A model generated the notes under the pieces. The model had not been told where the DNA came from. It searched no databases and was given only the letters and a program-made list of their open reading frames with translations. Made by a program: the position numbers and the translations under genes. From positions 1-64,000 of the forward strand of contig JAJYLT010000017.1 in the NCBI GenBank assembly GCA_021787565.1: a DNA stretch of 64,000 nt, given 5' to 3'. Source of the DNA: Acidobacteriota bacterium. GTDB lineage: Bacteria; Acidobacteriota; UBA4820; DSQY01. Of this stretch, positions 5,338 through 39,223 are shown piece after piece; the stretch's first letter is position 1, and each line of letters opens with the position of its first letter.

Positions 5338-5348
5338 TCATCACCTAC
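5338..5348. repeat. Left part of octamer array with target duplication CCTAC
   Basis: TCATCACC (5338-5345) plus TAC. The last five bases, CCTAC (5344-5348), are repeated at 39182-39186 on the other side of the prophage. Joining both sides restores six tandem 8-bp units of the type T(C/A)(A/C)TCACC. Confidence 0.85.
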
Positions 5349-5556
5349 TGTGAGAGACCGGATGGAATGGGACTGGATGGAATGGGGGTGAGGAACGGAG
5401 CGGGGGGCTGGGAGGCATGTGGGGAGAGAGTTCGGCGGCGGCGGAGGCGGTCCTAAATGAAGTGAGACTCGAACAATGAGTGGGCGACAGTGCATGTACA
5501 TAGTCTCACATAGAATGGGACCACGGGAGGAGCGATTGGCGGCCTTTAGGGGGTGA
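5349..5556. repeat. Prophage left end with putative transposase-binding sites
   Basis: 208 bp without a gene. It carries a tandem 15-bp repeat GACCGGATGGAATGG / GACTGGATGGAATGG (5356-5370, 5371-5385). It also carries an inner site GTCTCACATAGAATGGGAC (5503-5521) that matches the inverted site at the right end (39157-39175) at 16 of 19 positions. This layout is expected of transposase-binding end sites. Confidence 0.65.
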
Positions 5557-6018
5557 TTACTCAGCATGGAAGCCGGACCATGTTGAATAACCGGCGAGCG
5601 CGCGGCCGGATTTGGAGTCAAAGATCTGCACGGGGAGCTCGCTGCCCTGCGCCATGCGCCAGGTGTAGAGGGTGAGGCAGACGCGCTCCTTGGCCTGCGC
5701 GTCAAGGCGAGCCCATAGGTCCAACGAGACCCAGTAGCGCGAGCCGTCCTCGCGCAGGAGGAGCCCGGAGATCCTAAACTGGCGCACGAGATCCGCGGCC
5801 GCCGCCGCGCCCAGCCCCGTCGCGCGCTCCGCGCGCTGAGCATCCCGGACGCCTCGAGGCTGAAACGGCCACAGCCTCGAGGCGTGGGCCGCGAGCAGGG
5901 CGATCACGAGCAGCGCGAAGAGCAGCCAGCCGACGATACTCGCCGCTCCGAGTGCGTGCTCCCCCCTCTCCCTCTCCCTCTGGCCGTGGCCGTGGTCCCC
6001 CATCGAATCCTCGAACAT
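5557..6018 (-). CDS. Hypothetical single-pass membrane protein of the prophage
   Basis: 153 aa, leftward, downstream of the repressor gene and probably co-transcribed with it. The N-terminus is charged, followed by one membrane segment (IVGWLLFALLVIALLAAHA, about 28-47) and a soluble C-terminal domain with YWVSLDLWARLDAQ. ATG at 6018 is preceded by GGGAGG at good spacing; the GTG at 6024 overlaps that site. Being expressed with the repressor, it is likely made in the lysogen, so superinfection exclusion or another lysogenic role is possible. No family is recognised. Confidence 0.6.
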   Translation of the reverse strand: MFEDSMGDHGHGQRERERGEHALGAASIVGWLLFALLVIALLAAHASRLWPFQPRGVRDAQRAERATGLGAAAAADLVRQFRISGLLLREDGSRYWVSLDLWARLDAQAKERVCLTLYTWRMAQGSELPVQIFDSKSGRALAGYSTWSGFHAE

Positions 6019-6037
6019 GGTCACCTCCCAACCTCTA

Positions 6038-6745
6038 TTATAGGGACGGGCACCACCAGATCACCCGGCCGACGACGGGTGGGTCCACCAAGCGGGGGAT
6101 ATGGATGGGCTCCAGCCCAGCCGCATCGTTCTCCGCATAGAGCACCCAGTCTCGCTTCCCCACCTCGAACCAACGGATTGATAACCGGTCCCCCAGGCGC
6201 ACGGCCACGGGGCGGCCACGCAGATCTTCAGCGGGGTGAAGTGCATCTGGATGGGTATCGATGACGACCAGGAAGTGGGTTTGGATCACCGGGGCCATAA
6301 TGTTCTCATTGAACCTGACCGCATAGCTGTGCTGAGGATGGGGGACCAGCGAACTCAAGACCTGCATCCCCTCTCTCTCCCGCGCCTCGCTCCATTCGAT
6401 GCTCTGCCCGGCAGGCAATAACCCTTCCACGACCGGGATCGTCACGAATGGGTAGGGCGCCTGAAAATCAGGCGTGGCCTCCGCGATCCGTCCTCCCACC
6501 ACAGGCTGGATCAGCATGGTGCCGTAGCCCGTGATGAGCCAATGGGCGTTCATGGCGTACCGAGCGCAGAGTGCCTCAATCGCCGCCACAGATAGCATAT
6601 TGCGCCCCGCCTCCACCACCGAGATGGAACCCTGCCTCTGTCCGATGGCCCGTGCGAGCTCCGCCGTCGTCGCGCCCAGAGACAATCGGAACCGCCTTAG
6701 CCGCTCACCAAACTGTTGGGTCAGCGTCTTATCCATGTTGGGCAT
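6038..6745 (-). CDS. Prophage repressor, XRE HTH plus S24-like domain
   Basis: 235 aa. An N-terminal XRE helix-turn-helix spans about residues 10-66 (TTAELARAIGQRQGSISVVE). The C-terminal half has the LexA/CI-type S24 fold (SYAVRFNENIMAPVIQTHF ... GRPVAVRLGDRLSIRWFEV). Where active family members have G-D-S-M-x-P this protein reads E-N-I-M-A-P, so the catalytic Ser is replaced by Ile. The Lys position reads Arg (LSIRW). It should dimerise and bind operators, but self-cleavage is not expected. It is divergent from the early gene at 6830, with the operator/promoter region between. Confidence 0.85.
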   Translation of the reverse strand: MPNMDKTLTQQFGERLRRFRLSLGATTAELARAIGQRQGSISVVEAGRNMLSVAAIEALCARYAMNAHWLITGYGTMLIQPVVGGRIAEATPDFQAPYPFVTIPVVEGLLPAGQSIEWSEAREREGMQVLSSLVPHPQHSYAVRFNENIMAPVIQTHFLVVIDTHPDALHPAEDLRGRPVAVRLGDRLSIRWFEVGKRDWVLYAENDAAGLEPIHIPRLVDPPVVGRVIWWCPSL

Positions 6746-6755
6746 GGCCCCCCGC

Positions 6756-6784: not shown

Positions 6785-6829
6785 AACACCATCGAGCGCG
6801 CCATGGTGGCGCTATTAGCCGGAGGCCAA

Positions 6830-7251: not shown

Positions 7252-7704
7252 ATGAAGACACTGGACCAGGTCGTTGCCGCCACCATCCGCCGCTTCCGCG
7301 GAGGAGATGGCATTGAGGAGCTGGCGGATCACCTGGGCATCAAGCCAGGCATGCTCTACCGGCTCAGCAACCCGATGGACGAGGGCGCGCGCATCAATAG
7401 CAAGCACCTCATCCCGCTCATGGAAAAGACCAAGGACTACACCATCCTCAAGCACACGGCGGCCCGCCTGGGCTTCCTGTGCGTCCGCCTGCCGCGCGTG
7501 CGATCAGCCCGCCACGAGGACATGGCCGAGTACCAACGGCGCCAGGCGCAGGCCTTCGAGCGCCTGGCCGGCTTCTTTGCCGGCGCCCGATCGGCCGAGG
7601 AGACCCTCGAGGCGATCCGCCGCGAGATGGAGGCGGCCGCCGGGTTCGCCAAGGCGGTCGAGGCGCACGACACCCCCAGCCTCTTCGAGGACGAGCAGGC
7701 ATGA
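7252..7704 (+). CDS. Phage regulatory protein, CII-like
   Basis: 150 aa. The N-terminus (DGIEELADHLGIKPGMLYRL then NSKHLIPLMEKTKDYTILKH) resembles the P2-type CII-like regulatory family found in many transposable and temperate phages. The C-terminal half is a charged helix. The RBS is a GGAGAGGGG run before ATG 7252. It sits after the terminator hairpin at 7123 and directly upstream of the transposition operon, so control of that operon is likely. Its last codon overlaps the next start (ATGA). Confidence 0.7.
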   Translation: MKTLDQVVAATIRRFRGGDGIEELADHLGIKPGMLYRLSNPMDEGARINSKHLIPLMEKTKDYTILKHTAARLGFLCVRLPRVRSARHEDMAEYQRRQAQAFERLAGFFAGARSAEETLEAIRREMEAAAGFAKAVEAHDTPSLFEDEQA

Positions 7705-7955
7705 CCACCGCGTGCGCGTGGTGCGACTCCGTCCAGTCGGTGGACCTGGTGGCCCTGTGCCGCTCGGGCCTCTCCCCCGGCGTCTGCCCCGCGTGCATGC
7801 CCAGGGTCTTCGGCCGGCGGGCCTTCGAGGCCTATCTCGCCAAGACCCCGGGCGCCGCCTGCCAGCTTTGTGTAAATGGGGTCCAGTTGGAACGGCCAGT
7901 TGGGAATAAACGGGTAGGTCCCGTTCCGACTGAGACATGGGGGGCAAATGCCTGA
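7701..7955 (+). CDS. Small Cys-rich protein, zinc-finger-like
   Basis: 84 aa. Three CxxC pairs (CAWC, CPAC, CQLC) and a further Cys are spaced as in small zinc-binding proteins. It overlaps the CII-like gene by 4 bp and the transposase gene by 8 bp, so all three should be translationally coupled. The family is not recognised; a DNA- or RNA-binding accessory of transposition is possible by position. The C-terminal third has no Cys and looks disordered. Confidence 0.55.
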   Translation: MTTACAWCDSVQSVDLVALCRSGLSPGVCPACMPRVFGRRAFEAYLAKTPGAACQLCVNGVQLERPVGNKRVGPVPTETWGANA

Positions 7956-9987
7956 CAGTCAAGCCATTACACCAAGAATCGGCGCCGAAGAGGCCTGGCT
8001 CGACCTCGCTCCAGTTGGAACGCTGGAAGGTTGCACCCGGAGGAAAATACAGAAAAATATCTCCGAGGGAGTCTATCCCGAAGGGCTCATCCGCCAAGTC
8101 GTCGCCGCCGCCCCCGGCGGGTACAAGTGGCAGGTGCACGTCTCCGCCCTCTCGCCCGAGGCGCAGTCGCGCTACTGGGCGGACCGCACGGCGACGGTGG
8201 AGGACCGCATCGAGGCGATCCTCGCCCGGCAGACCGAGCCCCCGGCCGAGCCCACGCGCGATCAGGTTCTCTCCTCCTCCGGCAAGGAGCTGCGCAAGGC
8301 GGCCCACAAGGCCGCCCTGGTGGAGGAGTTCAAGGCGCTGGGGAGCAAGGCTGAGAAGGCCGCCTTCGCCGCCCGCCACCACCTCCCCCTATCCTCTCTA
8401 TATAGATGGTCGGGCACGTACGACGGGACGGCCGCCAGCCTGGTCCGACCCTTCGGCCTGAAGACCCTGACCCCCGAGCGTCAGACCGCCCGCCAGCTCG
8501 CGGTGGATCTCTACCTCCGCCCCGAGCGCCCCACCCCCGAGCAGGTCCTTCGCGCCCTCGCCGCCACCCTCGGCGAGGCCGCGCCCAGCCGGGCCACCCT
8601 CTATAGGTGGCTGTCGGACGAGGAGCTGCTCGGGGGCCGGGGCACGTCGGCCTACATCCGCCACGGCGAGAAGGTCTACCGCGACACAGCCGAGCCCGTG
8701 CGCCGGCGCGACTGGTCCCTCATCCCCGTGAATCACACCTGGGTGGGCGACCACCACCAGCTCGACCTGCTCTGCATCCTGCCCGGAGGCGCCATCGGGC
8801 GCCCCTGGCTCACCGCCTGGCAGGACGGCCACAGCCGGGCCATCGTCGGCCACACGATCAACGAGCAGCCCAACGCCACCGAGATCGGCCTCGCGCTCCG
8901 CAACGGGATCCTCCCCGAGGACGGCGAGCCCTTCCAGGGCGTCCCGGGCCAGCTCTACGTCGACAACGGCAAGGACTACCGGAGCAAGCTCCTCAACGGC
9001 GAGACGGTCCCCGTCTTCCGCCAGGAGCAGGCGGACCCCATCTGGGGCATGCTCGGGCACCTCGGCATCAAGACGCGCTTCTGCGAGCCCTACCACGGCA
9101 AGTCCAAGCCCATCGAGCGCTTCTTCGGCACCCTCGAAAAGGGCTGGATCTGCCTCATGAAGGGCTACTGCGGCCGCTCGCCCCAGCACCGCCCCGAGCA
9201 GCTCGCCGCCGACGTCAAGGCCACCCAGCTTTTCCTTGACTCGCAGGGTCGTCGCGGCGAGCGGCGCCTGCTGACCTGGTGGGAGATGGAGATCGAGGTG
9301 GGCGAGGCGATCCGCGCCTACAACCGCCGCCCGCACACCTCCCTGGGCTGGTCCGCCGGGCGCGGCTACGCCACGCCCATCGAGGCCTACGCCGCGGGCC
9401 TGCCCGCCTCGGTGCGGATCCCCTCGCGCGAGGTCCTCGACGTGCTGGTGCTCCCGTCCGCCGCGCGGCAGGTCCGCAACGACGGCATCCACGTCGCCCG
9501 CATGGCCTACTGGCACCCCGACCTGGCCCCGCACGTCGGCCAGGACGTGGAGGTCCGCTACAACCCGCGCGGCCGGCAGGAGATCCTCGTCCTGCGCAAG
9601 GGCGCCTTCGTGGCCTGGGCCCAGGCCCAGCCCGGCGCGGCCCCCTTCGCGGAGACCGAGGAGGAGCTGGACGAGCTGCGCGCCTTCCTCGCCGGCAACG
9701 CCCGCCTGCGCAAATCGTACCGCGAGCGCCGCGCCGCGCTTTTGGCCACCAACCCGCTCGCCGCCATGGTCCCCGGCACCCGCGAGCTCCAGGCCATGGG
9801 CACGGTCGTCCCCATGCCGCACGTCACCGGCTACGACCGCGCCGTCCGCCAGGCCGCCCGCGCCAAGCGCCGGGCCGAGCAGTCATCGGCTACACCTCCC
9901 ACGCCCGCCCAGGCGGCGGCCGTGGGTGATCTCGTCGTATGGGAGTTCCAGAAACAGAGGACAGAGGAAAGGAGGACCGAGAGATGA
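7948..9987 (+). CDS. MuA-like DDE transposase
   Basis: 679 aa, close to MuA (663 aa). An N-terminal HTH/Mu-type DNA-binding domain (about 1-60) and further helical end-binding domains (to about 230) precede an RNase H-like core. Core acidic residues are seen at VGDHHQLDLL (Asp), LYVDNGKDY (Asp) and SKPIERFFGTLEKG (Glu). A beta-barrel and a basic C-terminal tail, which in MuA contacts MuB, follow. It catalyses strand transfer of the prophage ends for integration and replicative transposition. The start overlaps the previous gene, and the stop overlaps the MuB-like start (ATGA). Confidence 0.95.
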   Translation: MPDSQAITPRIGAEEAWLDLAPVGTLEGCTRRKIQKNISEGVYPEGLIRQVVAAAPGGYKWQVHVSALSPEAQSRYWADRTATVEDRIEAILARQTEPPAEPTRDQVLSSSGKELRKAAHKAALVEEFKALGSKAEKAAFAARHHLPLSSLYRWSGTYDGTAASLVRPFGLKTLTPERQTARQLAVDLYLRPERPTPEQVLRALAATLGEAAPSRATLYRWLSDEELLGGRGTSAYIRHGEKVYRDTAEPVRRRDWSLIPVNHTWVGDHHQLDLLCILPGGAIGRPWLTAWQDGHSRAIVGHTINEQPNATEIGLALRNGILPEDGEPFQGVPGQLYVDNGKDYRSKLLNGETVPVFRQEQADPIWGMLGHLGIKTRFCEPYHGKSKPIERFFGTLEKGWICLMKGYCGRSPQHRPEQLAADVKATQLFLDSQGRRGERRLLTWWEMEIEVGEAIRAYNRRPHTSLGWSAGRGYATPIEAYAAGLPASVRIPSREVLDVLVLPSAARQVRNDGIHVARMAYWHPDLAPHVGQDVEVRYNPRGRQEILVLRKGAFVAWAQAQPGAAPFAETEEELDELRAFLAGNARLRKSYRERRAALLATNPLAAMVPGTRELQAMGTVVPMPHVTGYDRAVRQAARAKRRAEQSSATPPTPAQAAAVGDLVVWEFQKQRTEERRTER

Positions 9988-10901
9988 CGCACATGGTCGC
10001 AACCGACACCACGGGCACGGATCAGGGGCTCGTCGCCGAGCTCCGCGCGCTCATGGAGGCACGCGCCTGGGGCCAGCGGCGCGTCGCCGAACTGCTCGGC
10101 GTGAGCCAGACCACGCTCAGCCAGTGGCTCGGCGACAAGTACGGCGCCGCCGACGCCATGAACGCCCGCGTGGCCGAGTTCCTGCACGAGCGCAAGGAGG
10201 CGGGCGAGGGCGTCGTGCCCGCCGAGGGCTACACCCTCATCCAGGAGGTCTGCGCCCTATGCCAGGAGGACTGCAAGTTCGCGGTCGTCCAGGGCAACCC
10301 CGGCGTGGGCAAAACCAAGGCCCTCCAGCTCTACGCGCAGGAGCACGACGACGTGCTCTACGTGCGCGTGGACGTGACCACCACCATGAAGGTGCTCCTC
10401 GAGGAGCTCGTGGGCGAGGGCGCCGGCCTCACCAACGCCCAGCTCATGCGCGAGGCCCGCGCCCGCCTGAAGGGCGCCCTCATCATCGTGGACGAGGCCG
10501 ACCTGCTCGCCGTGCGCTCCCTCGAGGCCCTGCGCGCCATCTGGGGCGACGGCGGCTGGTGCGGCCTGGTGCTTGCCGGCACCCCCAAACTAGAGCGCCT
10601 CCTGCGCCGCGGCCCCCACGCCAGCGAGAACCTCGCCCAGCTCTACAGCCGGGTCGACTTCAACGTCGTCATCACCAACCCGAGCGTCAGCGACCTCGAC
10701 CAATACCTCGACCGGGCCGGGGTGCAGGACGCCGATGCCCGCCGGCTCATCACCGCCGCCGGCAACCGCGACAGCTTCAGGGCCGCGGCCAAGCTCTTGA
10801 GCCAGGCCCAGCGCGTGGCGCGCCTGAACGGCCAGGGCTCCGTCACCGGCGCCTCCGTGCGCGCCGCCTCCAAGCTCATCATGCGGCCCCACGCCGCCTA
10901 A
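9984..10901 (+). CDS. MuB-like transposition target ATPase
   Basis: 305 aa (MuB is 312). An N-terminal HTH (about 18-50, VAELLGVSQTTLSQWLGD) precedes an AAA+ core with Walker A GNPGVGKTK (about 108) and Walker B LIIVDEAD (about 170), then a small helical C-terminal domain. MuB-type ATPases coat target DNA, stimulate the transposase and give target immunity. ATG 9984 overlaps the transposase stop by 4 bp and follows AAAGGAGGAC. Confidence 0.93.
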   Translation: MTHMVATDTTGTDQGLVAELRALMEARAWGQRRVAELLGVSQTTLSQWLGDKYGAADAMNARVAEFLHERKEAGEGVVPAEGYTLIQEVCALCQEDCKFAVVQGNPGVGKTKALQLYAQEHDDVLYVRVDVTTTMKVLLEELVGEGAGLTNAQLMREARARLKGALIIVDEADLLAVRSLEALRAIWGDGGWCGLVLAGTPKLERLLRRGPHASENLAQLYSRVDFNVVITNPSVSDLDQYLDRAGVQDADARRLITAAGNRDSFRAAAKLLSQAQRVARLNGQGSVTGASVRAASKLIMRPHAA

Positions 10902-11165: not shown

Positions 11166-11177
11166 TAGGAGGACGTG

Positions 11178-11705
11178 ATGGCGAAGAACCCCCTCAGACT
11201 CACCGCCCAGGCTCACCGGGCGACCCCCCAGACCGCCGCAGAGGCCAGCAATGCCATGGGCGAGCTGGGCACGGCCATGGCCGAGCGAGCGCGGCTCCAG
11301 GCCGACCTGAACCAGGCCGTGGCCGCCGTGACCGCCCGCTACCAGCCCAAAATCCAGACCCTCGCCGGCCAGGTGAAGGACCTGGTGGGAGGGCTCCAGA
11401 CCTGGGCCGAAGCGAACAAGGACGACCTGACCGCCCAGGGCAAGCGGACGGTGAACCTCGGCACCGGCGAGGTGGGCTGGCGCCTCAACCCGCCCAAGGT
11501 CAAGGTGACCGGCCTTCAGAAGGTCATCGAGCTCCTCAAGGCCAAGGGGCTGGAGATGCTCGTGGCCGTCAAGGAGGACGTCAACAAGAAGGCGATCCTC
11601 GAAGAGCCCTCGCAGATCAAGGGCATCAAGGGGCTGGAGGTCGTCCAGGACGAGACCTTCTGGGCCAAGCCCGCCTCCGTGGATATGGAGGAGATCGCGT
11701 CATGA
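11178..11705 (+). CDS. Gam-like host-nuclease inhibitor
   Basis: 175 aa. It matches the Mu Gam family: a long N-terminal coiled-coil region with ARLQADLNQAVAAVTARYQP, then TVNLGTGEVGWRLNPPKVKV and a helix with KGLEMLVAVKEDVNKKAI, a pattern typical of Gam. The protein binds DNA ends like Ku and protects phage DNA from exonucleases during transposition. AGGAGG (11168-11173) supports ATG 11178. The stop overlaps the next start. Confidence 0.88.
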   Translation: MAKNPLRLTAQAHRATPQTAAEASNAMGELGTAMAERARLQADLNQAVAAVTARYQPKIQTLAGQVKDLVGGLQTWAEANKDDLTAQGKRTVNLGTGEVGWRLNPPKVKVTGLQKVIELLKAKGLEMLVAVKEDVNKKAILEEPSQIKGIKGLEVVQDETFWAKPASVDMEEIAS

Positions 11706-12505: not shown

Positions 12506-12922
12506 ATGAACGAGCAGAGAAGCCGAGGAGCTGAGGAGCAGAGGGGCCGGGGGGCTCAGACCAGCCCGCATGAGGCGCTGGGGCTGGCGATCCTGGCGGA
12601 GCTGGAGCTGGCGCGCGAGCCGATCCCGCGGCGGGAGCTGGTGCGCCGGTGCGGGCCGTTCGGCGTCAAGATCTCCACCGCCGAGCGCCGCGTGCGCGAG
12701 GCCCTCGACTGGCTCGTCATGCAGGGGCACCCAGTGATGAGCGACGGCTCTGGCTTCATTATGGCGCGCAATCCCGCGCAATTCGAGGCCGGGCTGCGCC
12801 TCCGCGAGAAGGCCGTCCAGGCGGAATCCCAGAAGCTCAAGCGATTGCGCGGCATGCTCCACCGCATGCGCTACCCGGTGCAATCCGCCGCGCAATCCCT
12901 CCCCTTTGAGGTGCGGCCATGA
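12506..12922 (+). CDS. Hypothetical protein, possible winged-helix
   Basis: 138 aa. After a Glu/Arg-rich start, the region about 22-75 (ALGLAILAELELAREPIPR ... RVREALDWLVMQGHPVMSD) looks like a winged-helix domain. A basic helix follows (QKLKRLRGMLHRMRYP). Phage proteins of this shape are often annotated only as HTH-like. Its stop overlaps the HNH gene start by 4 bp. Confidence 0.6.
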   Translation: MNEQRSRGAEEQRGRGAQTSPHEALGLAILAELELAREPIPRRELVRRCGPFGVKISTAERRVREALDWLVMQGHPVMSDGSGFIMARNPAQFEAGLRLREKAVQAESQKLKRLRGMLHRMRYPVQSAAQSLPFEVRP

Positions 12923-13281
12923 GCCCCGTGAACGATGCCTCGCTGTTCGGGCCGAACTGGGGCCGAATCTCCCTTTCCATCAAGGAGCGGGCGGCGTGGC
13001 GCTGCGAATGCCGGGGCGAGTGCGGCCAGGCCCATGAGGGCGGCCGCTGTCAACACCGGCAGGGCGACAGCCCCGAGGGCCGCCGCCGCCCGGTCATCCT
13101 CACGGTCCACCATATCAACGGGTTGCCGTGGGACCACCATCCCGGCAACCTCCTGGCCCTCTGTGAGGGTTGCCACAACCACATGGACATGCCCATGCGG
13201 CAGGCCCATGCGAAACAGACCCGGGAGCGCGGCAAGGGGCTGCGCCCATTGTTCGAGGTGATCCATGAGCATCAACCCTGA
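12919..13281 (+). CDS. HNH endonuclease-like protein
   Basis: 120 aa. Cys-rich N-terminal part (CECRGECG) followed by the HNH core LTVHHINGLPWDHHPGNL and ALCEGCHNHMD, with the His-His, Asn and His residues of the fold plus the structural CxxC. Freestanding HNH proteins are frequent in the early/middle region of transposable phages. It is separate from the terminase, so it may act in DNA processing or exclusion; this is not settled by sequence. It overlaps both neighbours by a few bases. Confidence 0.8.
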   Translation: MSPVNDASLFGPNWGRISLSIKERAAWRCECRGECGQAHEGGRCQHRQGDSPEGRRRPVILTVHHINGLPWDHHPGNLLALCEGCHNHMDMPMRQAHAKQTRERGKGLRPLFEVIHEHQP

Positions 13282-13486
13282 GACGGCCGGACGGCCGGAC
13301 CCGCCCGACCGCGAGGCGGTGCTCGCCGCCGAGGTGGAATCGCTCCTGCGGCGCGTGGCCAGCCTGGAGACGCGGCTGGAGGCGCTGGCGCGGGCCTACC
13401 GCAACCTCCCCACCGAGGTGAAGCTCGGCTACGGCCGCGTGGGCTACGAGGACTGCCACAAGATGGACCGGGAGTTCCACCCGTGA
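13265..13486 (+). CDS. Small coiled-coil protein
   Basis: 73 aa. A disordered acidic start is followed by a heptad-rich helix (LAAEVESLLRRVASLETRL, about 20-40). It overlaps the HNH gene by 17 bp and the RlpA-like gene by 4 bp (GTGA). Unknown role. Confidence 0.6.
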   Translation: MSINPETAGRPDPPDREAVLAAEVESLLRRVASLETRLEALARAYRNLPTEVKLGYGRVGYEDCHKMDREFHP

Positions 13487-14109
13487 CTGCCCCCCTGGAG
13501 GGCCTGTCGCGCGGCGCGCGCGGCTTTGCGGCCGTGGCCCTGCTGGCGCTCCCCCTGGCCCTGCGGCCGGGGGGCGCGCCCGTGGCGCCGCCGTGCCCTC
13601 CGGCGCTCTGGCAGGCCCCGGGGCGCCCCGCCGGGCTGGTGCTGGCCTCGTGGTACGGCCCGGGGTTCGCGGGGCGCCTGACGGCCTCCGGCGCGCCCTA
13701 CGACCCCTCCGCCATGACCTGCGCGCACCCCACCCTGCCGCTGGGCACCCGCGTGCGCGCCATCCGCCTGGACGACGGCCGCTCGGTCGAGCTCACCGTC
13801 ACCGACCGCGGCCCCTACTGCCAGGGCCGCGGCCTCGACGTCAGCCGCGCCGCCGCGCACGAGCTGGGCTTCGAGGGCCAGGGCCTCTGCGCCCTTCGCC
13901 TGGAGGTCATCCCGTCTGCCAGCATGGCTGGACCGGCGGTGCAAACATGGCCCATTTCTCCCAATACGGGTGATATGCCACAGACCTGTCAGCCCCCGCG
14001 AGGCGGAATTGAAAAAAAAATAGAAAGCAGACTGTCAACTTCTGCCCAACTCGGCAGCCATCTTTGCCCTCGTGGAAGGGGCGCAACCACAATCGGAGGC
14101 CGCGCATGA
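13483..14109 (+). CDS. RlpA-like double-psi beta-barrel protein
   Basis: 208 aa. A hydrophobic N-terminal segment (FAAVALLALPLAL, about 15-28) suggests export or membrane anchoring. The DPBB core spans about 53-145: LASWYGPGFAGRLTASG, MTCAHPTLPLGTRVRAI, and LTVTDRGPYCQGRGLDVSR with the Asp-Arg-Gly-Pro motif of RlpA transglycosylases. The last 60 residues are not part of the family, come from less GC-rich DNA and look disordered. RlpA cleaves denuded peptidoglycan at septa in bacteria. The GTG start overlaps the upstream stop. Confidence 0.85.
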   Translation: MTAPLEGLSRGARGFAAVALLALPLALRPGGAPVAPPCPPALWQAPGRPAGLVLASWYGPGFAGRLTASGAPYDPSAMTCAHPTLPLGTRVRAIRLDDGRSVELTVTDRGPYCQGRGLDVSRAAAHELGFEGQGLCALRLEVIPSASMAGPAVQTWPISPNTGDMPQTCQPPRGGIEKKIESRLSTSAQLGSHLCPRGRGATTIGGRA

Positions 14110-14528
14110 GCCTGACGCCTAGACAGGTGCGGATGCTGCACGTCGCCCGCTATAAGACCGCGACCAGCGAGGAGGACTACCGGGCGCTCCTGGGGCGCTA
14201 CGGCACCCCCGAGAGGCCCCTCACCTCCTCCCTCGACGCGCGCCTTCAGCCCGCCCACTACCACGAGATGATGAAGGTGTTTGGGTCGCTCGGCTTCACC
14301 CCCGCGCCCAGGCCCGCCACGCCCGCCGGCGGCTCGCCCGCCCAGGTGCGCGAGGTGGAGCGCCTCTGCCGCGAGCACCGGGTGGAGGAGAAGCGGCTAC
14401 GCGGCATCGTCCTGCACGTCACCGGCAAGGACGACCTGCGCTGGTGCGGCCGCCGCGACCTATCCAAGCTCATCCAGGCGCTTCGGCGCTGGCAATGGGA
14501 GGAGGAGGGGAACCATGCAGCACGGTGA
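14106..14528 (+). CDS. GemA-like regulatory protein (DUF1018)
   Basis: 140 aa. It fits the Mu GemA family: N-terminal RQVRMLHVARYKTATSEEDY and ALLGRYG, then a long variable middle, and C-terminal LRGIVLHVTGKDDLRWCGRR. In Mu, GemA affects host gene expression and DNA supercoiling, and the gene sits just before mor. The same position here is followed by an HTH gene. ATG 14106 overlaps the RlpA-like stop by 4 bp. Confidence 0.82.
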   Translation: MSLTPRQVRMLHVARYKTATSEEDYRALLGRYGTPERPLTSSLDARLQPAHYHEMMKVFGSLGFTPAPRPATPAGGSPAQVREVERLCREHRVEEKRLRGIVLHVTGKDDLRWCGRRDLSKLIQALRRWQWEEEGNHAAR

Positions 14529-26033: not shown

Positions 26034-26041
26034 GAGGGACG

Positions 26042-29769: not shown

Positions 29770-30318
29770 ATGGGCACTGCTGCAAACATCCAGCTCGGCA
29801 TCGGCGACCTGTCCATCAAGACCTACGCCGCCGGGGCCTACGGCGCGGGCTTCGCGGCCGTGGGCTTCCACACGGACAAGGGGGCCGTCTTCAACTACAA
29901 GGGCGACCTGCTCAAGGTCAAGAGCGGCAACGGCCTGGGCATTGTCAAGGTCTTCGTGACGGGCGAGGAGGCCAGCCTGGAGGCGGCCATCCTCGAATTC
30001 ACCGCGCTGAATATCGCGCGCGCGCTCGGCCTCGCCGACACCGGCGTGACCGACGACGCGGTCAACAAGATCAAGAGCTTCTACATCGGCGGGAACACCG
30101 TCAACAACTATTTCAGCGCGCAGTTCAAGGTGCCCTTCGACGTGGCTGGCCTCTACGGCCAGCTCACCATCTTCAAGGGCCGGTTCGCGGGCGAGCTGAA
30201 GCTGGAGATGGCGCCCTCCAAGCCCATCGAGACGGCCGTCTCCATCGAGTGCATGGCCGACGACGCCGTGGGCGTGACCAACGGCAAGCTCGCCATGCTG
30301 GAGTTCAACTACCTGTAG
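29770..30318 (+). CDS. Major tail tube protein
   Basis: 182 aa. Position (before the frameshifted chaperone gene and tape measure), size and beta-rich pattern (LSIKTYAAGAYGAGFAAVGF; FNYKGDLLKVKSGNGLGIVK; FSAQFKVPFDVAGLYGQLTI) identify the tube subunit. AGGAGGACACC precedes ATG 29770, the same RBS as scaffold and capsid. A long hairpin follows. Confidence 0.75.
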   Translation: MGTAANIQLGIGDLSIKTYAAGAYGAGFAAVGFHTDKGAVFNYKGDLLKVKSGNGLGIVKVFVTGEEASLEAAILEFTALNIARALGLADTGVTDDAVNKIKSFYIGGNTVNNYFSAQFKVPFDVAGLYGQLTIFKGRFAGELKLEMAPSKPIETAVSIECMADDAVGVTNGKLAMLEFNYL

Positions 30319-30367: not shown

Positions 30368-30409
30368 CGGAGCATGGGGTGCTCCCCGATGAGCCCGGAG
30401 GTGATGAGG

Positions 30410-30778
30410 ATGAAGCGCTATCAGATTGGAGACCGGACGTACAGGCTGGATGAGCTGGTGCTGGACCAGGAGGAGGCGCTGACGGAGCTGCTCGAACCGC
30501 TCTACTCGGCTGGCGAGACCACGGCCAAGGGGCTGGTGGACGGGCTCCTCAGGCAGAAGCTCCTGCGCAAGGCGCTGGCCGTGGTGCTGGTGCCCGAGGG
30601 CGAGACCGTCGAGGCCATGGACCGCGAGGCCGTGGCCGCGCACCTCGGGGCGCACCTGACCGTGAGCCAGCAGGCCCAGGTGATCCGGGATTTTTTCGAG
30701 GTCAACGCCGCGGCGATCGCCGCCCTCAAGGCGCTGGTGCCGGGGGCGGCGGTGCCGAAGGGGGTCTCGATCAACTGA
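30410..30778 (+). CDS. Tail assembly chaperone, short form (G-like)
   Basis: 122 aa. Small alpha-helical protein between the tail tube and tape measure genes, where tail chaperones lie. ATG 30410 is chosen because GGAGG (30397-30401) has suitable spacing; ATG 30404 is too close. Near the end the codons TTT TTC preceded by T form a canonical slippery heptamer. The normal stop lies at 30776-30778. Confidence 0.75.
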   Translation: MKRYQIGDRTYRLDELVLDQEEALTELLEPLYSAGETTAKGLVDGLLRQKLLRKALAVVLVPEGETVEAMDREAVAAHLGAHLTVSQQAQVIRDFFEVNAAAIAALKALVPGAAVPKGVSIN

Positions 30779-31104
30779 TCGTCTACCTCGCGCGGGGCGA
30801 CGTGCGGCGGCACCGGTGGATCCGCTACCACGTCACCCTCCGCGAGGCGGTGCTCTACGCCGCGGAGCTGGTGCGGCGGGAGCGGCTCGATGAGTTCAGG
30901 CGCCAGAAGCTATATGAGGTGATCAATGGGTCGCTGGGCGGTGAGTTCAAGGCCGATCAAAGCCTCCTCGAAGAGCCTTCAAAGGGCGATTCGGGGCCGC
31001 CGTCGGGCCGGCAGAAACTGCGGAACTGGGTGCGGCTGGCGGAACTGATGGGGGCGGACGTCCCCGCGAGCGTGAGGGCCCTGGCCAATGGCCGAGACGA
31101 TTGA
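30410..31104 (+). CDS. Tail assembly chaperone, -1 frameshifted long form (GT-like)
   Basis: A -1 shift at T-TTT-TTC (30691-30697) enters a frame that stays open to 31104 and adds the domain GDVRRHRWIRYHVTLREAVL ... RQKLYEVINGSLGGEFKADQ. The downstream frame has no RBS (only GTG 30802), which favours the shift. A second possible slip is the GGGGG run at 30760-30764 near the end of the short form. Expected product about 231 aa. Long and short forms normally coat the tape measure protein in a fixed ratio. Confidence 0.65.
30691..30697 (+). promoter_or_regulatory. Slippery heptamer T TTT TTC
   Basis: In the zero frame the codons read GAT TTT TTC GAG. Slipping back one base keeps Phe-tRNA pairing on both codons. 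It joins the G-like frame to the T-like frame. Confidence 0.65.
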
Positions 31105-34069
31105 CACCCTGCAAGTAGACCTCACCGCCAACCTGGCGCCGCTCTTCGCGGCGCTGGATTCCGGGCTGAAGCAGGTCCGCGACAAGGTGCAGGCCTTTAA
31201 GGACGGCAAGGTCGAGGTGACGGCGAGCGCCGACAAGATGCTCGGCCAGCTCGGCGAGGCGAAGGCCAAGGCGGGCGCCTGGAAGCGCGAGACCGACTCG
31301 GTCTCCGTCGTCCAGCCCTCGGTCAACTCGGGCGGCTTCATCCAGGGGTTGAGCGATCTGCGCTCCAAGGCGGAGAGCGTGGCGCGGGCGCTGGGCAACG
31401 TCTTCTTCGCGGCGGCCGGCTTCCGCGAGATCATCAGCGTCTTCGGGGAATGGGTGAAGGCCAGCGGCGACCAGGAGGTCGCCCTGGCGCGCCTGCGGTC
31501 GGCCCTCTCCGCCTCGGGCGCGGCGGGCATTTCGGCCTTCGAGCCGCTCAAGGCCCAGGCCGAGGAGCTGGCGACGCGCTATGGCCAGTTCGGGGACGAG
31601 GCGATCCAGAGCGGCCAGGCCGTTCTGGCCTCCTTCAAACTGACCGGGGCGCAGATCGAGGCCCTCACGCCCGTCCTGCTCGATGCGGCCACGGGGCTCA
31701 CCAAGATGGGCGAGGGCGAGGTGAGCCTGGAGGAGGTGGCCATGCTCGTGGGCAAGGCCCTCAACGGCCATGCCGAGGCCCTCCAGCGGCTCGGGATCCA
31801 GGTGGACCTGGCGCGCTACAAGCTGGACCCGCTGGGCGCCACCATGGACGCGCTCAACCGCCGCTTCCAAGGCCTCACCGCCGCCGTCGCCGGCACCGAC
31901 CAGGGCAAATTGAAGAGCCTCGCCGAGCGGTGGGGCGAGATCGAGAAGGCCCTCGGCAACATGGTCAAGGCGGTGCTTCTGCCGCTCATTGAAGCCCTCA
32001 AGCCGGTGATGAACGCCTTCCTCGCCCTTCCCGAGCCGGTGCAGAGGGCGGCCGTGGTGATCGGGATCGCCGCCGTCGCCATGCGGGCGATGAACGTGAC
32101 GCTGGTCGAGGTGGCGGCGCGACTGCTGGTCTTCGTGGACACCCTGGGCGCCGGTGCCGTGGCGGCGGTCTCCCGCCTCGCGGCGGCCCTCGCCACCCTC
32201 AACTGGGCGCAGATGACCGGCGGGATCGCCGCGGCCACGCAGTCGCTGGCCGCCTTCGCCAACGGCATGGGCATGGCCGGGAAGGCCATCCTGACCGTGG
32301 GCGCGTTCTGGGCCGGCTGGCAGATCGGGCGCTGGATCTCGGACGTGACGGGCCTCACGGCGGCCACCTCCAGGGCGGCCGAGGCGGACCGCACCTGGTC
32401 GGACGCGGAGATCGAGCGCTTCGCCGCCCAGCTCCGCGCCAAGACGGGCCTCGACCTGAGCGCCGCGGCCATGCGGATCTGGATCACACTGAGCGCCGAG
32501 ATGCGCCAGAAGCTCATGGACGAGGCCAGGGCCACGGGCGACCTCATGATCACCGTGGAGGACCTGACGCGCGCCATGCAGGCCCAGAGCGCCGAGCAGG
32601 CGGCCCTTGCGCGCCAGTCCCTCTGGTCGGACGAGAAGCGCCAGCTCGCCGATTTCCTGTCCTACTACCGCTCCTCGCGCGCCTCGCAGATCGCCACAGA
32701 CATCGCGGCGGCCGAGGCCAGGGTGCAGGCCGCCGCCAAGGGCTCCAAGGAGGAGGAGGCGGCCCAGCAGGAGCTGACCCAGCTCCTGAGGCAGGCGGCG
32801 CAGGAGAAGGTGAGGCAGGAGGAGGGCGCGGCCTCCCGGGCGCAGGCGGCCTGGAAGGCCTCTTTCGACGCGCAGAAGGCCAAGGTGCTGGAGCTCGTCA
32901 AGACCATCTCGGAACAGGCGGCGCAGGCGCGGGCGAAGTGGGCCGACCTCGCGCAGTCCATGGCCGGGGACCTGCTCAAGGCGATGGACCCCACCGAATA
33001 TGAGCGGTCGCAGGTCCGCATCCAGGCGGCGGACAACGAGCGGGCGGCCAGGGCGACCCTTCAGGGCCAGGCCCTCGCCGACGCCCTGGTGCAGATCGAG
33101 CGGTGGAAGGCCGAGCAGATCGGGGCGATCAACGACAAGGCGCTCCAGGACGAGGCAGAGAAGCAGAAGCAGGCACTGGATAAGGAGCGGGAGCAGGCCC
33201 TACGCGCCCACCAGCAGGCCATGCAGCGCCTTCGCCAGCAGGTGCAGGCGATCCTGGACCCGATGCAGGCCATGGTGGAGAGGGCCTACCAGAGCATGAG
33301 CGTGGCGGCGGCCGTGTGGGCCGAGCGCGTGGCCTCCATGATGCAGCCCCTCCAGCAGGCCATCTACTCCTTCCTGACGGGCATGAAGGTCAACTGGAGC
33401 AACGTCTTGCGGCAGATGATCGCGCAGTTCGTGATGCAGTTCGTGAGCAAGTTTTTGGCCTGGGTGGCCGAGATGGTGGTGGCCTGGATCACGGGCGAGA
33501 CGAGCAAATCGTCCGCCAGCGCCGTCGGGGCCGCGGAGCAGGTGGCGGCGGCCACGGTGGTGAGGACCGCCAACGCGGGCGTGGCGGCAAGCGCCATGAG
33601 CGTGACCATCGCCGAAATCTTCGCGGCGCACGCCTGGATCCCCTATGTGGGCGTGGCGATCGCGGCCGCCTTTTCTGCCGTCGCCTTGGGCATCTGGGCG
33701 GGGCTGAGTGGTGCCGCGACCGGCATTGCAATGGCCGGGGCGGCCATGGCGACGGGCGGCCTGGTGGACCGGCCGACGTGGACGCTCTCGGGCGAGGCCG
33801 GACCGGAGCTGTTCGCGCCGGTCAGCGGCTTCCAGGCGGTGGTCGGCTCGCTGCTCGCCGACACGGTGGCCACCACGCGCATGGCCGCCATCGGCGTGGG
33901 CAACGAGATGCGCGGGGGCGCGGGCGGGCCGGGCTCGGCCTTCACGTGGGAGCCCCACTACCATGGCTTCGCATTCGTGGACAGCGGCAACCGCGGCTAC
34001 ATGCGCGCGGCGGCCCGCAAGATGACCAAGGCCCTGAGCGATCAGGCGCGGCAGAGGCTGGGGAGGTAG
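31088..34069 (+). CDS. Tape measure protein
   Basis: 993 aa. Long helical protein with coiled coils (about 450-620 and 680-760), hydrophobic segments (PYVGVAIAAAFSAVALGIW near 860) and the typical tape measure ending GGLVDRPTWTLSGEAGPELF. Its length would give a tail of roughly 150 nm at 1.5 A per residue. The start overlaps the chaperone long form by 17 bp. It sets tail length and helps DNA entry. Confidence 0.92.
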   Translation: MAETIDTLQVDLTANLAPLFAALDSGLKQVRDKVQAFKDGKVEVTASADKMLGQLGEAKAKAGAWKRETDSVSVVQPSVNSGGFIQGLSDLRSKAESVARALGNVFFAAAGFREIISVFGEWVKASGDQEVALARLRSALSASGAAGISAFEPLKAQAEELATRYGQFGDEAIQSGQAVLASFKLTGAQIEALTPVLLDAATGLTKMGEGEVSLEEVAMLVGKALNGHAEALQRLGIQVDLARYKLDPLGATMDALNRRFQGLTAAVAGTDQGKLKSLAERWGEIEKALGNMVKAVLLPLIEALKPVMNAFLALPEPVQRAAVVIGIAAVAMRAMNVTLVEVAARLLVFVDTLGAGAVAAVSRLAAALATLNWAQMTGGIAAATQSLAAFANGMGMAGKAILTVGAFWAGWQIGRWISDVTGLTAATSRAAEADRTWSDAEIERFAAQLRAKTGLDLSAAAMRIWITLSAEMRQKLMDEARATGDLMITVEDLTRAMQAQSAEQAALARQSLWSDEKRQLADFLSYYRSSRASQIATDIAAAEARVQAAAKGSKEEEAAQQELTQLLRQAAQEKVRQEEGAASRAQAAWKASFDAQKAKVLELVKTISEQAAQARAKWADLAQSMAGDLLKAMDPTEYERSQVRIQAADNERAARATLQGQALADALVQIERWKAEQIGAINDKALQDEAEKQKQALDKEREQALRAHQQAMQRLRQQVQAILDPMQAMVERAYQSMSVAAAVWAERVASMMQPLQQAIYSFLTGMKVNWSNVLRQMIAQFVMQFVSKFLAWVAEMVVAWITGETSKSSASAVGAAEQVAAATVVRTANAGVAASAMSVTIAEIFAAHAWIPYVGVAIAAAFSAVALGIWAGLSGAATGIAMAGAAMATGGLVDRPTWTLSGEAGPELFAPVSGFQAVVGSLLADTVATTRMAAIGVGNEMRGGAGGPGSAFTWEPHYHGFAFVDSGNRGYMRAAARKMTKALSDQARQRLGR

Positions 34070-34072
34070 GCC

Positions 34073-34486: not shown

Positions 34487-34506
34487 GGCTCGCCTCCGGG
34501 GGTCTG

Positions 34507-37500
34507 ATGAGCTATAGCCTCCAGCTCCGCCTGAAGGACGGCACCTACCAGGATGCGGACCTCTCGGAGACCGACGCCGGGAACCTGGCCCAGCAGTACG
34601 AGGACGACCAGCGCCAGGCCACCTTCGACGACCTCTCCCTGACGCTGGACGACACGGACGGCGCCTGGATCGCCCTCTTCAGCCAGGCCGCCCTTCCGCC
34701 CACCGACCAATACCCCGCCAAGTTCGGCTTCCGGCTCCTCCAGGACGGCGTCCCCTTCTGGGAGGGCGACCTGGACTACACGAGCGTCGAGCACGACGAC
34801 GAATCGGCCACCACGCAGGTGCGCGTGACGGACGCCCTCTCGCGCCTATCCCTGCATAATGCCGAGACCCTGAAGCGCGATTACTCGGCCATCGTGATCG
34901 TGGAGGGCGTGAAGCATACCAAGGTGCTCGCGGTGAATTCGGTGCTGGCGGCGGACGGCTCGCCGCTGGTGGCCGGGGACGTCCTCCAGCTCGGCCACAT
35001 GAAGCCCCAGCAGGGCGGCGGGGTGAACCTCTTCAAACAGGAGCTCACGGTGGTGTCGGTGGACACCGGGGCCAACACCATCACCTTCAAACAGCCGCTC
35101 AAGGCGCATTACGTGCCCGGCGACGCGATCATCGTGGAGGACCCCTGGTACAAGGGGGTGACCGCGCAATGGGCGCTGGAGGCCCTCCTGGACAAGGTGC
35201 CGGGGTTCGACGACCCGGCCCACCGGGTGATCGACTACGACGGGGTGACCTGGTCGGACGTCATCGACGTGCTGGACCTCGGCAACAAGGACGTGGGCGC
35301 GGGCGTGCAGCTCGTGGCCGACTGGGTGAACGCCCAGGTGTCCTCCGCCTGCAACGTCATCATCATCCGGGGCCGCGAGCGGGTGAGCGACCCAGCCCCG
35401 GTGAAGGCCCTGGACGACCTGGTGGGCGAGGCCACCCAGCTCCAGCCCGTGGGGGCGGACCGCTACGACTACGTGAAGATCACGGGGCGGGACAAGCACT
35501 GGGCGCGGAGGGGCGTGAACCTCTTCGCGGGCAACGCCCTGAGCCTCGAATTCCCCTTCAGCTCCGACCGCGCCCGCCTTCAGCAGGTGGCCGACCGCTA
35601 CTACGACTATTGGGGCCGGTACAGAGAGATGTACGTGGACACGCCGGTGGCCGACGACGGCATGGCCTATACCCTGGGCAAGCGGGTGAGCCTGGGCGGC
35701 ATCATCTATAAGACCGTGAAGGCGAGCCAGGACCTGGAGGACAACGGCGAGCTCTCGCTCGACCTCATGGGCGAGAGCGGCATCCTGCCGGATCCCGGTG
35801 CCTACGACCAGGACGACATCGTCGATGAGGATGAGGACCCGCCCGAGCCGGTGGACTTCGTCTGCACGCATAATTACTCGGACACCTTCAATGCCCTCTT
35901 CCCGAGGCTGGAGCACCGCCGCCTCGTGGCGAGCTGGGAGCAGGTGGGCACGGGCGACGGGGGCAAGGCGATCCTCGGGTGGGTGGGTTATCGCCTGCTC
36001 GAATTCCGCTGGCGCTACCCCTACGACGAGGGCCTCGTCTCGCGCGTGTGGCGCTTCTACATCACGGTCTGGGCCGACGGCAAGGACCGGGACAACGCCC
36101 ACTACCACTTCTCGGCCGAGCCCATCCTCCAGCCCGACGGCTGGTACTACGCGAGGGGCCGGGTGCGGGCGGGGAAGCTCTGGTGGGCCGACGTGGTGGC
36201 CGTGACCGAGGCGCTGAAGGAGGGGATCCCGAGCAACGAAAACTCCTCCTCCTCCTCGGACGACACGGTGCCGGGCACGGACATCAGCGAATGGGACTAC
36301 ACGCGCCCCGGAACGCCCGCCGGCGTCAAGAAGCTCAAGGGCATCTCGACCAAGAGCAAGAAGTTCTACGAGATCACGCTCAATACCGACGAGACCGGCA
36401 CGGGGAGTGAGCACGACAACACCCGGCTCAAGCGGGCCCTGCTCGCCGAGGTCGAGCCCCTAGTGGCGCCCATCGGCACCCCCGCCCTCGCCCCGGTGCA
36501 GCTCACGGGGACGGTGGCCGTGGTGGCCGGGGCGGTGGACGTGGTGGGCACGGGCACCCTCTTCACCCAGGAGGTGGACGAGGGCGACGCGATTATGATC
36601 GCCTCGGCCACCCCCGACGAGACCACGCCCACCTATGGCGTCCTGCGGGTGCTCGATGACACGCACCTGGAGATCGACGACACCTGGGGCGGCGCCACGG
36701 GCTCCTTCAACCTCTATAATGGGTGGCCCGATACCAACCCCGCCTGGGTGCAGGCCCCGAGCAAGGTCATCAAGGGCATCGCCGCGAGGCGAGGGAAGGT
36801 GCGGGTGGTGATCCACAAGGAGGATGACGAGGTCATCGACGTGCGGTTCCGCGTCTGCGACCGCGTCGCCCGCCGCAGCCCCTGGGCCGTCGAGGGCGCC
36901 GAGACGCCCATGCAGGCCCTCGTGCTCAGGCTGTCGCGGACCTTTAGCCTCGCCAATTCGGGCATCTACTCCTACGATCCCTCCACGAGCGCGTGGGCGC
37001 CGACCAACCCGCCGGGGGTCTATCATATCAAGACGGATTATCCCGCCTGGCCCGTGGGGGCGCGGTTCATCTATGGGCAGGCGGGGCAGTTCCTGCTCCA
37101 GCTCTGGAGGCGCAGCCCCGACCAGGCGACCTGTCTCTCCGTCAGCATGGACAAGTCGGGGACTTGGGCATTATGCGTGCTGCCAGCGGGCTATCTGATC
37201 AACGGCGTCGGAGAGCGTTTCGTCGACATCAGCGAGGCGGGGAACGGCAAGACGATCTACGTGGTGGCCAGGGATTCGGGCGGTGCCTATCACTGCCTGA
37301 GGTCCCCGGACGCCGGGGCGACCTGGCATATCGGAGCGACGGACGTCCATTTCTATAACGCGAGCTACCCGGTGGCCAGCCCGGCCGACGCTATGACCGT
37401 CTATGTGACGAGAGTCGTCAACCTCGTTAATTGCCTCTTTAAGTCCGAGGACGGGGGCGATAACTTCACGCAGATGGCCAGCTTCCCCGATACCACGCAA

Positions 37501-38982
37501 CTCCCCTGCATTCTGGCCATGCCCCAGTCGGCGGGGTCGCTGATCGTGCTCGAAGTCAACCCGCCCCTTATGTGGCGGACCGGAGACGGCGGCGCTACCT
37601 ATTCGGCCGATATACGGCCTATAAGCGCCACCTATTCCTTGAGCCCCCGCCCCATTCTGGCGCGTGATCCGAGCGACCCCGAGACGATCTACACCGCCGG
37701 CAGGCTCTTTGACTCGCACTCCGCCCTTGTGGGTTGGTGGTTCGCCGTCAGCCACAAGGGCATGGCCACCGTCTCGGCGGACTGGACCGTCTATACCTAT
37801 ACGGACCATACCTACTATCCGATGCAGATAATCGTGGATCCCCTGAACCCCCTAAACATCTACATCTCCGTGCCCGGCGCGCCCTTCGTCCTCATCTCGA
37901 ACGACGGCGGGGTGACATGGACCGAGGCGACCGGATTCCCCGGCGGAGATGATGGGATCTATGACCCCGACCAGGGCCTCTGCGTCTTCGGCGAGATCGG
38001 CGCCCCTCCGCAGGACCGCGTGCCCATCTACGCGCTCGGATATAACGGCGCCCAGCACACCCGGTCGCTGTGGGACTCGACGGACGACGGGGACTCGTGG
38101 GCCCGGTACTGGCAGGATGCGAGCATCACCATGACCGGGCCATGGGCGGCGATCGCCCGGGAGCCTGACGACACCACCGGGCAGACGATCTATAGGGGCA
38201 TGGAGGGCGTCGGCGTGAAGGTGTCATCCAACAAAGGAGAGGATTCCGACAACTGGCTGACGCTCGGGAGTAAGTGGAGGAAGATCCTGGTTCCGCCCTC
38301 GTCCAGCTATGGCTACGTGGTGGACAATCCCGGATCACTATTCCGCACGGCTACCCGGAAGAACACCCCTCCGATCCTATGGCAGAAAATCGCCCCGCCC
38401 GGAGTGACCGCGGCGTCCGCCTGCTACGATCCGAGCGATCCGAAGACGCTGCACCTCTTGGGTGACGACGGGTTGGTGTATACCACCCTCGACGCAACAG
38501 CCATAACGCCCGCATGGGACGCTGGCCAGCCGACAGGCTTCACTACCAGCAACGCGCAGGAGATCATCTGCCCGGCGTCCGGCGTCCTCTGGGTGGTCGG
38601 CAAGCGCGAGGTGATCGATGGGACCTCGACGGTGATCCGCCACAGCGTCGATGGCGCTGCGACCTTCACCAACCCCACCGATCCCAACGTGGGCATCACT
38701 TCGCTGGACATCGGCCAGGTGTTTGTCACGGCCTCCGGCGCTCTCATCGTGCTCTCCAGCAACGGAACGCCCGGTCTCTGGCGCAGCCCCGATGCCGGCG
38801 TTACCTGGACCAACCCCTACATGGGAGTCAAGTGCTACGGCGTCGCGCCCATGCCAGACGACGCAGGGTCGCTGGTGCTCGGCTGCGACGGCGTGATCCA
38901 GCTCAGCAGCGATGACGGCGTGACTTGGGTTGCGGGCGGATCTACTGGAGACGTGAACAAGAAGTTCTTGGCGGTCTGCTAG
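34507..38982 (+). CDS. Giant tail tip/receptor-binding protein with Asp-box propeller
   Basis: 1491 aa. The N-terminal 450 residues have hub-like beta domains (SLTLDDTDGAWIALFSQAAL; GVPFWEGDLDYTSVEHDDES). The C-terminal half contains several Asp-box (BNR) motifs of type S-x-D-x-G-x-T-W: SPDAGATW, SEDGGDNF, SNDGGVTW, STDDGDSW, SPDAGVTW, SSDDGVTW. These are the marks of sialidase-like beta-propellers, so the protein probably binds or degrades a host surface glycan. It is the last gene of the prophage and carries no signal peptide. Confidence 0.8.
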   Translation: MSYSLQLRLKDGTYQDADLSETDAGNLAQQYEDDQRQATFDDLSLTLDDTDGAWIALFSQAALPPTDQYPAKFGFRLLQDGVPFWEGDLDYTSVEHDDESATTQVRVTDALSRLSLHNAETLKRDYSAIVIVEGVKHTKVLAVNSVLAADGSPLVAGDVLQLGHMKPQQGGGVNLFKQELTVVSVDTGANTITFKQPLKAHYVPGDAIIVEDPWYKGVTAQWALEALLDKVPGFDDPAHRVIDYDGVTWSDVIDVLDLGNKDVGAGVQLVADWVNAQVSSACNVIIIRGRERVSDPAPVKALDDLVGEATQLQPVGADRYDYVKITGRDKHWARRGVNLFAGNALSLEFPFSSDRARLQQVADRYYDYWGRYREMYVDTPVADDGMAYTLGKRVSLGGIIYKTVKASQDLEDNGELSLDLMGESGILPDPGAYDQDDIVDEDEDPPEPVDFVCTHNYSDTFNALFPRLEHRRLVASWEQVGTGDGGKAILGWVGYRLLEFRWRYPYDEGLVSRVWRFYITVWADGKDRDNAHYHFSAEPILQPDGWYYARGRVRAGKLWWADVVAVTEALKEGIPSNENSSSSSDDTVPGTDISEWDYTRPGTPAGVKKLKGISTKSKKFYEITLNTDETGTGSEHDNTRLKRALLAEVEPLVAPIGTPALAPVQLTGTVAVVAGAVDVVGTGTLFTQEVDEGDAIMIASATPDETTPTYGVLRVLDDTHLEIDDTWGGATGSFNLYNGWPDTNPAWVQAPSKVIKGIAARRGKVRVVIHKEDDEVIDVRFRVCDRVARRSPWAVEGAETPMQALVLRLSRTFSLANSGIYSYDPSTSAWAPTNPPGVYHIKTDYPAWPVGARFIYGQAGQFLLQLWRRSPDQATCLSVSMDKSGTWALCVLPAGYLINGVGERFVDISEAGNGKTIYVVARDSGGAYHCLRSPDAGATWHIGATDVHFYNASYPVASPADAMTVYVTRVVNLVNCLFKSEDGGDNFTQMASFPDTTQLPCILAMPQSAGSLIVLEVNPPLMWRTGDGGATYSADIRPISATYSLSPRPILARDPSDPETIYTAGRLFDSHSALVGWWFAVSHKGMATVSADWTVYTYTDHTYYPMQIIVDPLNPLNIYISVPGAPFVLISNDGGVTWTEATGFPGGDDGIYDPDQGLCVFGEIGAPPQDRVPIYALGYNGAQHTRSLWDSTDDGDSWARYWQDASITMTGPWAAIAREPDDTTGQTIYRGMEGVGVKVSSNKGEDSDNWLTLGSKWRKILVPPSSSYGYVVDNPGSLFRTATRKNTPPILWQKIAPPGVTAASACYDPSDPKTLHLLGDDGLVYTTLDATAITPAWDAGQPTGFTTSNAQEIICPASGVLWVVGKREVIDGTSTVIRHSVDGAATFTNPTDPNVGITSLDIGQVFVTASGALIVLSSNGTPGLWRSPDAGVTWTNPYMGVKCYGVAPMPDDAGSLVLGCDGVIQLSSDDGVTWVAGGSTGDVNKKFLAVC

Positions 38983-38986
38983 TCTT

Positions 38987-39028
38987 AGGTGCCTCTTCGA
39001 GGCGCCTTTAAAGGGCCTTCAACGGCCC
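38987..39028 (+). terminator. Double hairpin ending the late operon
   Basis: AGGTGCCT-CTTCG-AGGCGCCT (38987-39007) followed by TTTAAA, then GGGCC-TTCAAC-GGCCC (39013-39028). Four bases after the last prophage stop. Confidence 0.7.
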
Positions 39029-39181
39029 CAGAAAACATGGTTGAGGATGGCCTCAACCCCCGACCGAGCCAAAACAAGCGGGCCTTGCGCCCGCGAAGTG
39101 TATTCTGCCGGGTCAAATCCCGCCGCGATTCTGAGTCCCAAACCATACGAGACAAAGTCTCATTCCGTGTGAGACGAGACA
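39029..39181. repeat. Prophage right end with inverted transposase site
   Basis: No gene. GTCTCATTCCGTGTGAGAC (39157-39175) is itself an imperfect palindrome and is the inverted counterpart (16 of 19) of 5503-5521. A further related GAGTCCCAAACCATACGAGAC lies just inside; split here as GAGTCCCA and ATACGAGAC. The element ends at ...GAGACA (39181). Confidence 0.65.
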
Positions 39182-39223
39182 CCTACTCACCTCATCACCT
39201 CATCACCTACTCACCTACTCACC
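39182..39223. repeat. Right part of octamer array, starting with CCTAC
   Basis: CCTAC (39182-39186) is the second copy of the target duplication. It is followed by TCACC, two TCATCACC and two TACTCACC units. No coding potential; 39224-39262 is a short spacer before the SEC-C gene's 3' end. Confidence 0.85.

Follow-up and report, generated by a model that had tools for sequence, protein, structure and literature searches.

Mu-like phages are the classic example of insertion that is nearly random. Phage Mu duplicates 5 bp of its target and phage B3 6 bp (PMC8705779), and insertion hotspots at repeated extragenic elements (BIME/VNTR) have been described for Ab30 and 2P1 (PMC5977238). Transposable siphophages are known in the Rhodobacteraceae (RcapMu, vB_ThpS-P1 and vB_PeaS-P1; PMC5488378) and in Shewanella (PMC8541194). 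The sequence-only reading of the DNA studied here, which knew such phages from Pseudomonas, was thus true but incomplete on that point, and the new host range that it proposed is a weaker claim than stated, because Rhodobacteraceae and Shewanella already harbor them; only the host phylum looks new. The literature searched yielded no earlier paper that deals with Mu-like prophages in Acidobacteriota. In the window (the whole stretch of 64,000 nucleotides that was analysed), we put at roughly 0.7 the probability that a complete Mu-type, siphophage-like prophage lies in a pre-existing octamer array and that the MuA/MuB pair of its sub-lineage would prefer such arrays as targets.

The window host is an acidobacterium from a class that is small within Acidobacteriota (13 genomes), and among the genes next to the prophage are aprA, a qmo set and dsrB, which bears out the earlier description of a sulfur-metabolising (dsr/apr) host. 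Read directly from the sequence, the prophage spans 5349-39181 (33,833 bp, + strand) between TGT...ACA termini, and the same kind of ends is found in a relative in another genus (genome G004, see below). At the left junction, TCATCACCTAC gives way to TGTGAGAGACC, the first prophage base being 5349, and the host flank at 5338-5348 (+) is an array remnant, TCATCACC TAC. At the right junction, GAGACGAGACA is followed by CCTACTCACCTCATCACC (a flank also given as CCTACTCACC), the last prophage base being 39181. CCTAC is present twice, at 5344-5348 and at 39182-39186, as a 5-bp target duplication, and its right copy with the rest of the host octamer array occupies 39182-39223 (+). Joining host positions 1-5348 to 39187 onward yields TCATCACC TACTCACC TCATCACC TCATCACC TACTCACC TACTCACC, six perfect 8-bp units, and the proposed restoration of the array was indeed exact to the base. 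Two-unit matches (TMMTCACCTMMTCACC, at most one mismatch) occur in the window only at 39184-39223, where shuffles expect none. Judged by the window only, the duplication might take in one or two further bases, since the terminal CA of the phage coincides with the array; the flanks of the G004 relative, GCTTAC and ACTTAC, set it at 5 bp. GAGAC/GTCTC motifs in the left end region (5349-5515, +) and, by motif search, at the right end (39130-39181, +) are predicted to be transposase-binding sites, the motif GTCTCGTATG being common to the ends. TG...CA ends combined with such repeated putative transposase sites are in line with a Mu-type element.

Genes of the prophage were called from PHROGs and Pfam profile matches, and their order is that of a Mu-type phage. 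On the - strand, a 155-aa ORF at the left edge (5557-6024) matches no family, and a repressor with HTH and S24 peptidase domains (6038-6745, profile matches) is divergent from the genes that follow, all on the + strand. These begin with a CII-like/Ner-like regulator (7252-7704, phrog_101), an adjacent pair formed by a MuA-type DDE transposase (7948-9987, phrog_310, 4e-95) and a MuB-type targeting ATPase with an N-terminal HTH (9984-10901, phrog_296, 1e-55), and, by profile match, the Gam end-protection protein (11175-11705) and an HNH endonuclease (12919-13281). A double-psi beta-barrel (RlpA-like) lytic transglycosylase (13483-14109, profile match) sits in this early/middle region, apart from the endolysin, and is followed by a phage-conserved phrog_286 protein (14064-14528). 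The head genes comprise a probable small terminase or DNA-binding protein (15219-15791, weak match), the large terminase (15793-17271, profile match and relatives), the portal (17308-18705) and a MuF-like head morphogenesis protein (18665-19474; both by profile match), a prohead protease/scaffold (19556-20851, Peptidase_S78), the major capsid protein (20869-21837, 28% identical to siphophage capsids) and a head-tail adaptor (22241-22798, profile match). Downstream of the tail completion gene and ahead of the lysis genes lie phage ORFs, about 2.5 kb in all (24738-27222), that match no family; the endolysin (27730-28206, profile match) is followed by spanin-like ORFs (28724-29390, weak). Gam, MuF, portal and terminase within 33,833 bp agree with a Mu-type genome of about 33-40 kb, and all module genes are open, with no sign of decay. 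An Rfam search gave no match, and the left 8 kb showed no DNA similarity to known phages. The proposal of a complete Mu-type prophage with these limits is upheld by its termini, by the target duplication, by the genes it carries and by a related prophage whose ends are of the same kind.

The siphophage part of that proposal stands on gene content, a long-tail module devoid of sheath, with a candidate tube and weak tail homology. The module, all on the + strand, consists of a tail terminator/completion protein (23578-24015, Tail_completion_gp17), a tail tube candidate (29770-30318; position, a weak Ig-domain phrog and 60-73% conservation in relatives), two overlapping frames (30374-31104, conservation), the tape measure protein (31088-34069, profile match) and a 1497-aa tail tip/fibre protein (34489-38982, weak match). 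The overlapping frames probably encode the G/GT tail chaperones through a programmed -1 frameshift, in G004 as well, since the similarity to G004 in the second frame (30802-31104) extends ahead of that frame's first start codon (LDQLIVYLARGDV / LDDLIVRLAQGDV). PHROGs and Pfam matched nothing in the prophage to a sheath or a baseplate, whereas a second Mu-like phage of the family (G004:C5, see below) has a plain set of both. For the tube candidate, the predicted structure had a pLDDT of 29, a PDB profile search returned nothing meaningful, and no homologues for a deeper alignment were found in viral contigs. The tail completion protein, tube candidate, chaperone frames and tape measure, together with the lack of sheath or baseplate matches, make the phage probably siphophage-like, as known here from genes and not from microscopy.

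A second insertion of the same sub-lineage was found in G004 after the targeting hypothesis had been formed, and serves as an independent test of it. This relative (G004:C3:36245-68465, 32,221 bp), whose MuA, MuB and TerL are 68%, 73% and 73% identical to those of the window prophage, sits in the same kind of array, with octamer units on both sides and CTTAC duplicated (CCTACTTGCCTACTTACCTACTCACCTACTCACCTACTCACTTACTCGCTTAC followed by TGTAACGTCTCG on the left, GAGACGATACA by CTTACTCACTTACTCACCTACTCACCTACTCACCTTC on the right). Its chromosomal place is unrelated, the right neighbour being a metallo-hydrolase-like gene (read by eye), where the window prophage has a SEC-C gene. CCTAC and CTTAC nevertheless fall in an identical register of the unit (C-Y-T-A-C), both phages lie in one direction relative to the array strand, and their ends have the GTCTCGTATG motif in common. 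Across nine family genomes, the junction ACA + CYTMMTCACYTMMTCAC is confined to these two sites. Further TerL kin were found in G007 (65%), which belongs to the window's family, as does G004, and in IMG/VR fragments (L002, 83-84%; L107, 59%). A MuA search of 396 genomes of the phylum gave strong matches only in the window genome (G000), G004 and G007, with a weak one in G122, and the same search of IMG/VR gave no further members. Right-end pattern matches numbered eight, and the two inspected (L102, L104) are not phage ends; junction-pattern matches were unrelated repeats.

The array unit is T(AC or CA)TCACC, repeated. On pattern searches, on which all array counts rest, arrays of three units cover about 680 bp at 23 loci in the window genome (0.020%) and about 396 bp in G004 (0.013%). 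Arrays are scattered over most family genomes (G000, G001, G002, G004, G005 and G007); none was found by this search in genus g3. Those inspected are intergenic, and integration there need not disrupt host genes, which would be spared because the arrays lie between them. An orthologous empty site, looked for via the left and right neighbour genes in G001, G002 and G005, was not found: in G001, of the window genus, the contig ends inside the left neighbour gene, in G005 this gene is followed by another gene and no array, and G002 likewise has other neighbours and no array.

Both resolved insertions of this MuA/MuB sub-lineage (2/2) thus lie within arrays, which suggests, from n=2, that this virus lineage seeks arrays out rather than landing anywhere; beyond serving to mark the prophage ends, the array is probably a preferred target. 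A stronger version, in which the transposase or targeting ATPase would recognise one host repeat family with its register and direction, making the phage effectively site-directed into scattered 'safe harbour' arrays, is tentative and falls somewhat short of even odds in our judgment. Against a preference of either kind, only two insertions are resolved, surviving lysogens are a selected set enriched in safe intergenic sites, and known Mu-like phages usually insert broadly.

Less likely than the site-directed version, and on balance doubtful, is that arrays are hotspots for any transposing element, owing to their DNA structure or to a host factor that binds them. Such a general attraction would be in line with the preference of P. 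aeruginosa phages Ab30 and 2P1 for BIME/VNTR neighbourhoods (PMC5977238) and with two other Mu-like elements. One is G004:C5, a myophage of Mu-like type (its translated ORFs include, as recognised by eye, sheath and baseplate proteins); about 190 bp separate its left end from a degenerate array. The other is a distant Mu-like phage on IMG/VR contig 3300042991_001366 (L048 1893-2030), whose start appears to be separated from a GTGAGTAG octamer array by about 24 bp; an array pattern search of IMG/VR had returned five contigs, this one alone being close to a Mu-like phage. These elements are however near arrays and not in them, the left end of the IMG/VR phage being placed from motif spacing, and two others, G007:C58 and G005:C257, have no array nearby. 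The contig of G005:C257 is without an array. G007:C58 (JAKAJA010000001.1, Acidobacteria bacterium WY3.bin59) belongs to the overall lineage of the window phage (TerL 65%, MuB 49% and tube candidate 60% identical; about 34.9 kb between TGT ends), but its MuA is only 37% identical, its ends differ (GCGCA..AAAGATT), and its flanks (30 and 9 bp) are not arrays and hold no matching 5-bp duplication. Since none of these three family elements with other transposases (G007:C58, G004:C5, G005:C257) lies inside an array, the in-array position tracks the MuA/MuB sub-lineage; proximity to arrays may be more general.

Two of these elements deserve a separate mention. G004:C5 (L223 ~2057 to L224 ~19610) has paired CTTGGTTTTGCC sites, and a direct repeat of 8 bp, TGTTCCAA, where 5-6 bp would be usual, stands on both sides of its inferred ends, TGAAGGCTTGCT / TGTAAGCTTTCA. 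The contig of G007:C58 (L012/L013) is a single Mu-like phage genome between short stretches of host DNA that do not match, a hint, in one low-coverage assembly, of packaged or actively transposing copies.

It is unlikelier again that this is an ordinary broad-target Mu-like prophage, with both array insertions due to coincidence and to the survivorship of harmless intergenic lysogens. Low specificity is general in Mu-type phages (PMC8705779), and the other Mu-like elements lying about 190 and 24 bp outside an array are also intergenic. The odds that the second insertion would fall in an array are nevertheless about 1e-4 under uniform insertion, and about 1e-3 if only intergenic DNA, assumed to be 10% of the genome, is available; on that assumption, the array share of intergenic DNA is still only about 0.1-0.2%, yet both events lie inside arrays in the same register and strand, and including register and strand lowers the odds another 16-fold. 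Survivorship plays a part but can hardly account for both insertions being in arrays. That the array instead arose once the phage was in place, expanding at the phage ends through, for instance, slippage from the duplication, is very improbable: the window left flank retains just about 1.4 units, as this would allow, but long arrays stand on both sides of the element in G004 and arrays occur at many phage-free places.

From a mechanistic point of view, the junctions show that MuA cut, with a 5-bp stagger, an octamer array that the host already carried and joined the TGT...ACA ends to it, leaving CCTAC duplicated, and that the G004 relative inserted likewise into another array, in matching register and direction. 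The preference of the sub-lineage for arrays is the inferred step. MuB (with its N-terminal HTH and 73% conservation between the two phages) or MuA may recognise the repeat itself or the shape of its DNA. Alternatively, MuA/MuB may follow a host protein that binds the arrays. If true, this would offer a natural system for the study of target choice by an AAA+ ATPase of the MuB/TnsC type and of how an obligately transposing virus can spare its host at lysogeny, and would give a use to the otherwise unexplained 8-bp arrays of these acidobacterial genomes. The prophage also extends the transposable phages by a lineage from a class of acidobacteria that bears apr/dsr genes.

Known phages are distant from this one (MuA 24-31% identical; TerL at most 32% among the matches listed). 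Like Escherichia phage Mu, a transposable myophage, it has the MuA/MuB/Gam order, TG...CA ends, a 5-bp duplication, a repressor divergent from the early operon, MuF and a protease. It differs from Mu in a MuA only about 24% identical over half its length, in structural genes of other origin, in a sheathless tail module and in a clustered target. The Rhodobacteraceae phages RcapMu, RC1, vB_ThpS-P1 and vB_PeaS-P1 are also Mu-like and have siphovirus morphology (PMC5488378), but their hosts are Alphaproteobacteria, and vB_ThpS-P1 and vB_PeaS-P1 are without Gam, which is present here. With Pseudomonas phages B3, D3112, Ab30 and 2P1 it shares Mu-type transposition genes and, judging by gene content, probably a non-contractile tail; the duplication is 5 bp and not the 6 bp of B3, and neither the tape measure nor the tube candidate had a tblastn match, B3 and D3112 tails included, in 50,697 phage records. 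The hotspots of Ab30 account for about 5% of its insertions and lie 55-61 bp from a palindrome, outside any octamer array; Ab30 and 2P1 are thus a milder precedent for the array preference proposed here.
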